From Pseudomonas sp. R84 (GTDB lineage Bacteria > Pseudomonadota > Gammaproteobacteria > Pseudomonadales > Pseudomonadaceae): a DNA stretch of 64,000 nt. A model generated the notes under the pieces. The model made no database searches, was not told where the DNA came from, and worked only from the letters and a program-made list of their open reading frames with translations. The position numbers were made by a program, and so were the translations under genes. The stretch is from NCBI RefSeq assembly GCF_009834515.1, contig NZ_CP019426.1:682001-746000 (forward strand). The letters run 5' to 3'. Below are positions 31,258 to 42,471 of the stretch, one piece after another. The first letter of the stretch is position 1, and every line of letters starts with the position of its first letter.

Positions 31258-31262
31258 GATCA

Positions 31263-31288
31263 AAAGATCGCAGCCTGCGGCAGCTCCT
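31263..31288. repeat. Left half of a REP split by the IS110 element
   Basis: AAAGATCGCAGCCTGCGGCAGCTCCT, cut at its CT (31287-31288). The missing part, ACAGGTTCGG, is found at 32571 on the other side of the element. Confidence 0.88.
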
Positions 31289-31294
31289 TGTATG

Positions 31295-31500
31295 TTGCCC
31301 TCACACCAGTCAATTGAGATCTAAGCTCGCTGGTGCGGACATACGAAGATGTGTTTCTGGGGGAGACCGATCGCTCCTAAAGGCAGGACTTGCTCCTGAC
31401 CTTGTCTGTAGAGAGGTCCCCCCGCCTCATTGCCCACCACGAAGAGTATCGAGAAGCCGACAAGTCGGACTTCGCATTACAAGGTTGCAGTGGCATGAAG
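31295..31500 (+). ncRNA. Candidate IS110 bridge RNA
   Basis: The left end shows a 5' hairpin (CACCAG/CTGGTG, about 31315-31335) and two guide-bearing loops. Target loop (about 31381-31427, stem AGGC-GGAC/GTCC-GCCT): GCTCCT at 31392-31397 equals the left target up to the core, and CTGTAG at 31406-31411 is complementary to the core plus right target CTACAG. Donor loop: AGAGTATC at 31443-31450 equals the right end of the element, TACAAG at 31478-31483 is complementary to CTTGTA at the core/left-end join, and a GAAGCCGA/TCGGACTTC hairpin lies between. Exact 5' and 3' ends are not known. Confidence 0.75.
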
Positions 31501-31557
31501 TTCGAGGTCAGGGGAACCAGGATGCATTTCTAACCCAGTTCACTCGGAGTTGAAAGC

Positions 31558-32553
31558 ATGAGCATGCATGTCGGTTTGGATGTGGGGTCTCGCACGACCG
31601 CCATGGGCTGGCGCAACGACGGCCGTTTTGCAGGGGCCTGCAACATCGACCAAACACCCGCCGGGCGCAAAGCAGCGGTCAACAGGTTGCTCGAGCTCAA
31701 GCCTTTATCCGTAGTGATGGAGGCCACCGGCATCTATTACCTGGATTTGGCCATGGAGCTCACCGCGGCGGGTTTGCCCGTTTCGGTTATCAACCCGAAG
31801 AGCTTTCATAACTTTGCCAAGCTGATGCTGAAAAACAGCAAAACCGATGCGATCGATGCCCAGTTGCTAGCCGAATACGGCGAACGCATGAGCCCAAAAT
31901 TGTGGACGCCGCCCACGACCATACAGTTGGAACTGCGGGCTATCGGAAGGCATATCAATCGTTTGACGTGTCATCGCACCCGAGCCAAGAACGAGCTGCA
32001 TGCGCTGAAAGCTACTCAAACAACCGTGAAAATGCTGATTGAAGACGAAGAAGAAGCCATTGAAGCTTTTGACAAGCGAATCGAGCGTTTCAGGCTCGCA
32101 GGTCGGGCGCTGATCGACAACTGCCCGACGCTAAGCGCCCAGTTTGGGCACATGATCGCAGCGCCGGGCATGGGCGAAATTTCAGTATTTGCGGCACTGG
32201 CTGAATTGACGACCTTGCCAGTGACACTTAAGTCCGCGCAGGTCAGCCGACATGCAGGACTCGATGTGCGGCTTACGCAATCAGGTACCAGCATCGATAA
32301 ACCTGGGCGGATAAGTAAGGGCGGAAACGCCTACCTACGTTCAGCGATGTACATGCCAGCGCTGACTGCCATACGTTGCGACAGCAACGTGAAAGCCTTT
32401 TACGAAGCGTTGATCGGGCGAGGGAAGAGAAAGATGCAGGCTATCGTCGCCGTCATGCGCAAATACCTGACAGGCTTGTGGGCCTGCATGCGAGCCGGCG
32501 AAGATTTCAATACGGCCAAGCTTTTTAGCGCAAAAGATCTCGCAAAAGCTTGA
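31558..32553 (+). CDS. IS110-family transposase (DEDD recombinase)
   Basis: A 331-residue transposase. The RuvC-like DEDD residues read Asp8 (VGLDVGS), Glu55 (VMEATG), Asp97 and Asp100 (SKTDAIDAQLL). A central helical coiled region (about 125-190) is followed by the Transposase_20 domain from APGMGEISVFA (about 202), with QSGTSIDKPGRISKGGNAYLR holding the likely catalytic serine (Ser242 or Ser245). The gene looks intact and so could be active. The long non-coding 5' end places it in the IS110 rather than the IS1111 subgroup. The stop codon overlaps the predicted -35 of the junction promoter. Confidence 0.95.
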   Translation: MSMHVGLDVGSRTTAMGWRNDGRFAGACNIDQTPAGRKAAVNRLLELKPLSVVMEATGIYYLDLAMELTAAGLPVSVINPKSFHNFAKLMLKNSKTDAIDAQLLAEYGERMSPKLWTPPTTIQLELRAIGRHINRLTCHRTRAKNELHALKATQTTVKMLIEDEEEAIEAFDKRIERFRLAGRALIDNCPTLSAQFGHMIAAPGMGEISVFAALAELTTLPVTLKSAQVSRHAGLDVRLTQSGTSIDKPGRISKGGNAYLRSAMYMPALTAIRCDSNVKAFYEALIGRGKRKMQAIVAVMRKYLTGLWACMRAGEDFNTAKLFSAKDLAKA

Positions 32554-32570
32554 CCGTGAACAGAGTATCT

Positions 32571-32646
32571 ACAGGTTCGGTGTCGAACACAAATTTTGTG
32601 AACGCCCCGAACTCATGTAGGAGCTGCCGCAGGCTGCGATCTTTTC
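32571..32646. repeat. Right half of the split REP plus its inverted partner
   Basis: ACAGGTTCGG at 32571 completes the left REP. CATGTAGGAGCTGCCGCAGG (from 32614) begins the second, inverted REP copy, ending in GATCTTTT. Together with 31263-31288 this was one BIME before insertion. Confidence 0.87.
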
Positions 32647-40770: not shown

Positions 40771-42471
40771 TCAGAACAGGAAATAGCGCTGCGCCATCGG
40801 CAACGTTTCCGCCGGTTCACACCACAGCAACACACCATCCGCCTTGACCTGATAGGTTTGCGGATCGACATCGATGTCCGGCAAGTAATCGTTGTGGATC
40901 AGATCGGTTTTCTGCACGTCACGGCAGCCTTTGACCACGCCGATTTTCTTCTTCAACCCCAATGCCTCAGGCAGCCCGGCTTCCTGCGCCGCCTGACTGA
41001 TAAAGGTCAGGCTGGTGGCATGCAGGGAGCCACCGTAGCTGGCGAACATCGGGCGGTAGTGCACCGGTTGCGGGGTCGGAATCGAGGCGTTGGCATCCCC
41101 CATCAGGCTTGCGGCAATCGCGCCGCCCTTGAGGATCAGCGTCGGTTTCACGCCAAAAAATGCCGGGCGCCACAGCACCAGATCCGCCCATTTCCCCACT
41201 TCCACCGAACCGACTTCATGGCTGATGCCATGGGTGATTGCCGGGTTGATTGTGTACTTGGCGATGTAGCGTTTGGCGCGAAAGTTGTCGTTGCCTGCGC
41301 CGTCCTGCGGCAGTGGCCCGCGCTGCTTTTTCATCTTGTCGGCGGTCTGCCAGGTGCGTGTGATGACTTCGCCGACGCGGCCCATGGCCTGGCTGTCGGA
41401 GCTGATCATCGAGAACGCGCCGAGGTCGTGAAGGATGTCTTCGGCGGCAATCGTTTCGCGGCGGATGCGGCTTTCGGCGAACGCGACGTCTTCGGCGATG
41501 CTCGGGTCGAGGTGGTGGCAGACCATCAGCATGTCGAGGTGTTCGTCGATGGTGTTGCGGGTGAACGGCCGGGTCGGGTTGGTCGAACTCGGCAGCACGT
41601 TAGGGAAGCCGCAAGCCTTGATGATGTCCGGTGCGTGACCGCCACCGGCACCTTCGGTGTGATAGGTGTGAATGGTGCGGCCTTTGAATGCGCCGAGGGT
41701 GGTTTCGACGAAACCGGACTCGTTGAGGGTGTCGGTGTGGATCGCCACCTGCACATCGAACTGATCGGCGACGCTCAGGCAGTTATCGATGCTTGCTGGC
41801 GTGGTGCCCCAGTCTTCGTGCAGCTTGAGGCCGATGGCGCCGGCCTTGACCTGCTCGATCAGCGGCTCCGGCAGGCTGGCGTTGCCCTTGCCAGTGAGGC
41901 CGATGTTCATCGGGAACGCATCGGCGGCCTGAAGCATGCGTGCCAGGTGCCAAGGTCCGGAGGTGCAGGTGGTGGCGTTGGTGCCGGTGGCGGGGCCGGT
42001 GCCGCCGCCGATCATGGTGGTGACGCCGCTCATCAGCGCCTCTTCGATCTGCTGCGGGCAAATGAAATGGATGTGCGTGTCGATGCCGCCAGCGGTGAGG
42101 ATCATGCCTTCACCGGCGATCACTTCGGTGCCGGCACCAATGGCGATGGTCACGTTGGGCTGCACGTCGGGGTTGCCGGCCTTGCCGATGGCGGCGATGC
42201 GACCGTCCTTGAGGCCGACGTCGGCTTTGACGATGCCCCAATGGTCGATGATCAGCGCGTTGGTGATCAGCGTGTCGACGACTTCGGCCGCCAGCAGTTG
42301 GCTCTGGCCCTGGCCGTCGCGGATCACTTTGCCGCCACCGAATTTCACTTCTTCGCCGTAGGTGGTGAAGTCTTTTTCGACTTCGATCCACAGCTCGGTG
42401 TCGGCCAGGCGCACCTTGTCGCCGACGGTGGGGCCGAACATGTCGGCGTAGGCTTGTCTGGAGATTTTCAT
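40771..42471 (-). CDS. ureC: Urease subunit alpha
   Basis: A 566-residue catalytic subunit that hydrolyses urea to ammonia and CO2. Nickel ligands and catalytic residues are visible: HIHF, the carbamylated Lys in GLKLHEDWG, the HTDTLNESG and [12 protein letters not shown] histidines and the flap [13 protein letters not shown] 42471 ([13 protein letters not shown]) follows AAGGA. A long inverted repeat sits between ureB and ureC inside the operon. Confidence 0.98.

Follow-up and report, generated by a model that had tools for sequence, protein, structure and literature searches.

A predicted bridge RNA in an IS110-group element of Pseudomonas sp. R84, with guides that appear to change together with their targets among relatives

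In the window (the whole stretch of 64,000 nucleotides of Pseudomonas sp. R84 DNA that was analysed), the left non-coding end of an IS110-group element very probably encodes a bridge RNA of the IS621 type that guides insertion into REPs, with the GCTCCT at 31373-31378 as its left target guide; its expression and activity we infer from sequence comparison. Relatives in other bacteria change their guide together with their target, and we therefore regard the element as a new and well-supported instance of a mechanism already known. The original prediction had placed four guides in this region: GCTCCT (31392-31397) for the left target, CTGTAG (31406-31411) for the core and right target, AGAGTATC (31443-31450) for the right end of the element and TACAAG (31478-31483) for the join of core and left end. 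All four words are found at these coordinates, in the order of a bridge RNA; the order was reproduced in 0/20,000 dinucleotide shuffles of 31289-31557, and a spaced search of both strands found the words spaced likewise at no other place in the window. Judged from the relatives, three of these four assignments hold, and the left target guide has to be reassigned to a second GCTCCT, 19 nt upstream of the segment first chosen, which had been overlooked.

The element itself is an intact IS110-group IS (Table 1). It carries one ORF, whose product exceeds the curated cut-offs of both PF01548 (RuvC-like, 78 bits) and PF02371 (Tnp, 59.1 bits) and scores 178.6 bits with the NCBIfam IS110 model NF033542 (cut-off 140). 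The solved relatives of this transposase are ISCro4 (5.6e-35) and IS621 (1.4e-26). Residues D8, E55, D97, D100, and S242 are invariant across an alignment of 20 transposase sequences and, counted by hand and with the IS621 chain numbering taken as +2, align with D11, E60, D102, D105, and S241 of IS621, the structure and catalytic residues of which are given in an excerpt of PMC11208158; D8 precedes the aligned IS621 stretch and was placed via ISCro4. With 269 nt of non-coding sequence before the transposase gene (31289-31557) and 15 nt after its stop codon, the element fits the IS110 and not the IS1111 group. Its closest named relatives in a scan of genome contigs are in Pseudomonas, and a plasmid scan returned matches that were all under 60% identity.

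The element borders, originally set by rejoining the interrupted REP, were borne out by six near-identical copies in the element's own genome (G000; 6.6 Mb, single contig) and by an IS-free REP doublet at the orthologous site in the relative G002 (L132). Each copy sits in a REP as GCTC-CT-ACAG, and the junctions read ...GCTCCT/TGTATG on the left and ...AGAGTAT/CTACAG on the right in 6/6 copies. The sequence GCTCCTACAGG occurs 179 times in G000, against 9 occurrences of a reversed control. Both flanks of the window element could be placed in five relatives (G002, G004, G005, G007, and G011). A short spacer, with no REP doublet or palindromic repeat, lies between the flanks in G004, G005, and G007; in G011 (L130/L139), on our reading, the homologue of the right flank (ACAGGTT...) seems to continue unbroken from a different palindromic repeat.

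Table 1. Features of the element and its insertion site, in window coordinates
Feature	Coordinates	Strand	Basis or remark
Interrupted REP, left part; left target GCTC+CT	31258..31288	+	Common to sister copies; many genome matches
CT core, left copy	31287..31288	+	GCTC-CT, element, CT-ACAG in all six own-genome copies
IS110-group element body	31289..32568	+	1280 bp and a single CT core; ends defined by six near-identical copies located in different REPs
TATGTT, putative junction promoter -10 half	31291..31296	+	Separated from TTGACC by 17 bp that include the core
Predicted bridge RNA	31303..31518	+	37-element alignment, consensus fold, covariance model R1; 5' end deduced from the promoter, 3' end set by the limit of the aligned block
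5' stem-loop CACCAG...CTGGTG	31304..31335	+	Single-sequence fold
Predicted target-binding loop	31360..31423	+	Outer stem 31360-31368 with 31415-31423 (helix 1)
Left target guide GCTCCT, corrected position (predicted)	31373..31378	+	6/6 own-target match in 50/57 loci; top of the unbiased scan
Target-loop apical hairpin	31380..31403	+	Helix 2; includes the 31392-31397 segment of the original prediction
Right target guide CTGTAG, complement of CTACAG (predicted)	31406..31411	+	6/6 match in 36/54 loci
Left donor guide AGAGTATC (predicted)	31443..31450	+	Right end plus core C; 230/238 positions match, 34 distinct elements
Hairpin separating the donor guides	31454..31472	+	Helix 4 covariation
Right donor guide TACAAG, complement of CTTGTA (predicted)	31478..31483	+	ACAAG or GCAAG in 37/37 elements
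IS110 transposase (recombinase), 331 aa	31558..32553	+	PF01548 and PF02371, NF033542; ISCro4/IS621 homology; DEDD and Ser conserved
TTGACC, putative junction promoter -35 half	32550..32555	+	Overlaps the transposase stop codon
CT core, right copy	32569-32570	+	Six own-genome copies
CT core, right target ACAG, remaining REP doublet	32569..32645	+	Own-genome copies; IS-free REP doublet in G002

Since the non-coding end contains two copies of GCTCCT (at 31373 and at 31392), this element alone cannot show which of them is the guide. We thus turned to its relatives with a usable left end, a set of 57 loci with 37 distinct left ends: 3 of 20 loci from the own genome, 17 of 30 from 298 genomes of the genus, and 37 of 78 from a scan of genome contigs, many of which are fragmentary. 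Dropped from the set were L069 and L078, which lack a left end, together with fragments, Bacteroidota-type matches that are only distantly related (28-30%), distant Pseudomonas loci (L030-L034, L041-L044, and L050; 31-35%), L028, L029, and L040 (broken or at contig ends, with L091 representing G131), and L056 and L057, which lie on contigs already represented by L025 and L027; additional copies from G020, G213, and G217 are absent from the table of loci. The flanks of L087 and L093 are identical, and the two probably represent a single locus from two assemblies. The L025/L056 transposase copy (78% identity) has an internal TGA stop, and the L057 record, labelled Pantoea sp. Ap-967, shares its span with G134, which is of the window's genus, so the label may be wrong.

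The segment at 31373 equals the left target of its own locus in all six positions in 50/57 loci (33 of the 37 distinct elements), and the segment at 31392 does so in 13/57 loci (4/37). Among the 11 distinct elements in which the 31392 segment aligns without gaps, 31373 matches in nine and 31392 in four. An unbiased scan of all alignment columns against the left target placed the best diagonal at 31373 (23.6), with the next at 11.6 and the 31392 site at 5.4. Hence the bridge RNA as first drawn, with 31392-31397 as left target guide, is highly improbable, even though that segment equals the left target of all six own-genome copies and retains a weak excess of matches across relatives (44/148 versus 36.1 ± 3.9 shuffled; 495/20,000); it sits inside the covarying apical hairpin, of which it forms the 3' arm, and does not track the target. 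Comparison of guides among sister copies, the check put forward with the original prediction, thus leaves the bridge RNA as a whole standing and refutes this one segment. When guides are read from a single element, the arm of a hairpin can be taken for a guide, an ambiguity that relatives settle.

With shuffles that ignore kinship among the elements, the four non-core nucleotides of the left guide at 31373 matched the target at 143/148 positions over 37 distinct elements (88.0 ± 6.0 shuffled; 0/20,000), the right guide matched target nucleotides 4-6 at 85/102 positions over 34 elements (64.1 ± 3.3; 0/20,000), and the left donor guide matched the right end at 230/238 positions over 34 distinct elements (215.7 ± 2.1; 0/20,000). 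The left-target signal lies at -6, -5, and -4 (36, 35, and 36 of 37 versus 16-18 shuffled) and is weaker at -7 (24/37 versus 18.8); the right-target signal lies at +5 (30/34 versus 17.8) and +6 (21/34 versus 12.3). Target positions -3 to -1 and +1 to +4 are almost invariant and hence uninformative, and the core plus CTA is not independent evidence, as the element ends were set from conserved end words. Twelve left-guide words occur among the 37 distinct elements. Sixteen of these elements have a guide other than GCTCCT; 13 of the 16 show a 6/6 match to their own target, and none is inserted at GCTCCT. The left match is imperfect in 7/57 loci (L037, L048, L038, L024, L074, L089, and L094), with only 2/6 positions matching in L024 and L089.

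The remaining three assignments hold. CTGTAG covaries with the core-flanking right target, for which the unbiased scan gave its best diagonal at 31408-31406 (13.7; next 6.0); at least five positions match in 50/54 loci and 18/54 fall below 6/6, with L074, L090, and L094 having no usable right target. AGAGTATC, present again at the right end of the element (32562-32569), covaries with that end and follows its rare changes (GGAGTAT, TAAGTAT, and GAGTGT), with 8 mismatches in the 238 positions. In the window, TACAAG can form six base pairs with the core plus left end; the left end is nearly fixed among relatives, so covariation is uninformative for this guide.

The alignment of the 37 elements also supports a conserved RNA structure with 97.8% of cells paired, in which 19/28 pairs are changed on both sides; 0/500 shuffles reach this covariation, and slid structures give 1 to 8 such pairs. 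Both-side changes affect 4/8 pairs in helix 1 (the outer target stem, with 99.0% of cells paired), 5/7 in helix 2 (the apical hairpin, 31380-31386 with 31396-31403), and 7/7 in helix 4. Two loops can be recognised, the target loop clearly (helices 1 and 2) and the donor loop as a strong inner hairpin with weaker outer pairs. Between the outer stem and the apical hairpin lie GATCGCTCCT on the 5' side and TTGTCTGTAG on the 3' side. The apical stem occurs in Pseudomonas copies as CAGGA/TCCTG, CAAGA/TCTTG, and CAGGG/CCCTG, and the longer stem covaries. The 5' stem-loop, being too variable, is absent from the consensus fold, and the single-sequence fold of the window RNA was no better than those of shuffles (z = -0.70).

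Rfam scans, at gathering and at permissive thresholds, gave no match in the element. Elsewhere in the window, 42039-42322 matched the Rfam family 5_ureB_sRNA with 126.1 bits; this family was described from Helicobacter and would be unexpected here. Covariance model R1 gave exactly six matches in G000, one for each element and thus no orphan bridge RNA. Over the 298 genomes of the genus, nine were matched by the bridge RNA model, all of them among the 14 with transposase matches. The eighth bridge RNA of G217 has its own transposase, the transposase of one bridge RNA in G134 runs off the contig, and the other matches in G134 and G058 lie at contig starts. L024 in G020 has two bridge-RNA left ends in tandem, 286 nt apart, ahead of one transposase gene; the first unit is cut after its first codons, which amounts to one extra RNA in G020.

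When the right and left ends are joined over the core, they form a candidate promoter, TTGACC-17-TATGTT. Such a promoter with a spacing of exactly 17 bp is found in 33/34 distinct elements, the exception being L073, where another pair scored higher. The score of the window's promoter was reached by 17/1000 shuffles, so its weight lies in its conservation. The bridge RNA with a REP-specific target loop that was originally proposed is thus supported by covariation of the structure, by covariation of guides with targets over 37 elements, and by the conserved junction promoter. Among the relatives, all four G213 copies (L036, L046, L022, and L163) have two right ends: CG rather than the CT core follows the first, then comes a repeat of about 400 nt of the 3' part of the transposase gene, and the second right end is followed by CT. 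This composite, present at four sites, fits a need for a CT core at the donor end.

We considered whether the left-end RNA might instead regulate transposase expression, as Asr9/Ssr9 of ISPpu9 may do, with the guide matches being secondary. ISPpu9 belongs to the IS110 family, targets REPs in P. putida, and has two sRNAs of ~180 nt that are reported in an excerpt of PMC8450116 to act on transposase expression. Regulation alone would nevertheless not explain why the left guide covaries with DNA that lies beyond the element, which makes this explanation just as improbable as the bridge RNA as first drawn; regulatory and guide roles of the RNA are compatible with each other. Least credible of all is recognition of REP hairpins by the transposase itself, with guide matches from shared ancestry or chance: many insertions adjoin palindromes (by eye) and the relatedness of the elements is not removed by the shuffles, but the target is tracked solely by short internal-loop segments, and among proteins of 92-98% identity left-guide nucleotide -6 differs (G in the window and G034, A in G213 and L051) and is followed by the target in all those loci except L037 (a G034 copy).

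To relate the guides of the predicted bridge RNA to host repeats, five patterns (CCGGTCCTAC, CCCACCCTAC, TCGGCCCTAC, GCTCCTACAG, and CACGACCTAC) were each counted in 13 genomes together with a control. CCGGTCCTAC, the target of the guide in the G020 element, showed a clear excess only in G020 (188, control 27) and was found 0-8 times in the 12 others. A clear excess of CCCACCCTAC was confined to the three hosts that share this guide (310, 176, and 23; controls 13, 3, and 3), with 1-6 occurrences in the remaining 10 genomes. Similarly, TCGGCCCTAC was in clear excess only in G307 (134, control 12), in agreement with the guide of its own element, and occurred 1-9 times in the 12 others. CACGACCTAC was not enriched in any of the 13 genomes, a set that does not include its own host. 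GCTCCTACAG was enriched in G000 (242 versus 51), G217 (184 versus 50), G309 (119 versus 26), and G311 (179 versus 71), whose elements all carry the GCTCCT left guide, and also in G306 (55 versus 24), though the guide of the G306 element differs. No excess of GCTCCTACAG was seen in the GCTCCT-guided hosts G034 (49 versus 62), G310 (2 versus 6), and G308 (5 versus 49); the right guide in G308 specifies ACAC, not ACAG.

G213, with the guide ACTCCT, contains 488 occurrences of CACTCCTACAG (control 5) and 56 of GCTCCTACAG (control 48), and 4/4 of its copies sit in ACTCCT. CACTCCTACAG was also enriched in G000 (334 versus 3), G034 (57 versus 7), G020 (58 versus 8), and G312, the host of L051 (80 versus 5), with a smaller excess in G313 (18 versus 8) and no enrichment in G217; it is therefore not a host-specific word, and the guides in G034 and G020 differ from it despite its excess there. 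Because CACTCCTACAG is commoner than GCTCCTACAG in G000, this genome offers a test of guide choice within one genome. Although 334 CACTCCTACAG stand against 242 GCTCCTACAG, 6/6 copies are in GCTCCT, matching the guide, a choice with P of about 0.0055 if the element were indifferent, provided that insertions are independent and that the two REP types differ in nothing else. We incline slightly to the view that the target loop of this clade has repeatedly been retuned to the abundant palindromic repeat of the host, that these repeats act as host-specific safe harbours, and that a few guide nucleotides, those for target positions -6 to -4 (left) and +5 and +6 (right), determine the fit to the host and even the choice of REP subtype within one genome.

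Taken together, the proposed mechanism is as follows. Excision would join the right and left ends over the CT core and create the junction promoter, which is seen in the sequence and may drive the bridge RNA. In the target loop, the left guide (31373-31378) would pair with GCTC+CT on its bottom strand and the right guide (31406-31411) with CT+ACAG on its top strand; in the donor loop, 31443-31450 would pair with the right end and 31478-31483 with the core plus left end. By analogy with IS621, the DEDD/Ser recombinase would then exchange strands at CT and place the element in host REPs. In relatives, the guides have been altered to fit other dispersed palindromic repeats. The clade is a compact natural collection from which guides, targets, and ends can be read side by side (37 left ends, 12 left-guide words), and it illustrates how host repeats may allow bridge RNA elements to adapt to new hosts.

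Several parts of this picture are already published. Insertion of the Pseudomonas IS110-family elements ISPa11, ISPpu9, and ISPpu10 into REPs was reported in 2006 (PMC1525189, in excerpt); excerpts of PMC11208160 describe bridge RNAs and the junction promoter, covariation of guides with targets in 5,511 natural pairs, and a bridge RNA predicted for ISPpu10; and those of PMC11187229 describe natural retargeting between relatives. In searches of titles and abstracts of open-licence papers, we found no report of guide changes across the REP families of hosts in this clade. What is new is the member itself, along with a clear instance in which guides follow the repeats of their hosts.

The nearest counterparts of the element include IS621 of E. 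coli (PMC11208160, PMC11208158), with which it shares a homologous recombinase, a CT core, a REP target, a promoter at the junction of right and left ends, and a left-end RNA with target and donor loops carrying two guides each (PMC11208160). The IS621 target ATCAGGCCTAC also contains CCTAC, as does that of the window element. In contrast, the proteins are distantly related (1.4e-26), the window guides GCTCCT/CTGTAG suit a Pseudomonas REP, the left guide covaries mainly over target positions -6 to -4 versus a nine-base left guide in IS621, and the predicted RNA is about 216 nt long versus 177 nt. ISPpu10 of P. putida, compared by description only, is likewise an IS110-family element with a Pseudomonas REP target and a 2-bp direct repeat (PMC1525189, in excerpt), and a figure legend of PMC11208160 counts it among six elements for which a bridge RNA is predicted. 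ISPpu9, also REP-targeting and of the IS110 family, has sRNAs of ~180 nt at its ends, described in the excerpt of PMC8450116 as regulators, one of them antisense, and extra RNA copies in some loci; unlike ISPpu9, G000 has no extra RNA copy. Finally, the seekRNA of the IS110-family element ISEc21 and that of its relative ISMch6 (PMC11187229, in excerpt) resemble the predicted RNA in being upstream and non-coding, with the match to the bottom strand lying 5' of that to the top strand, and in natural retargeting between relatives; the element and the target are different ones, and that work, as excerpted, treats one IS110 pair and one IS1111 pair, versus 12 left-guide words in 37 elements here.
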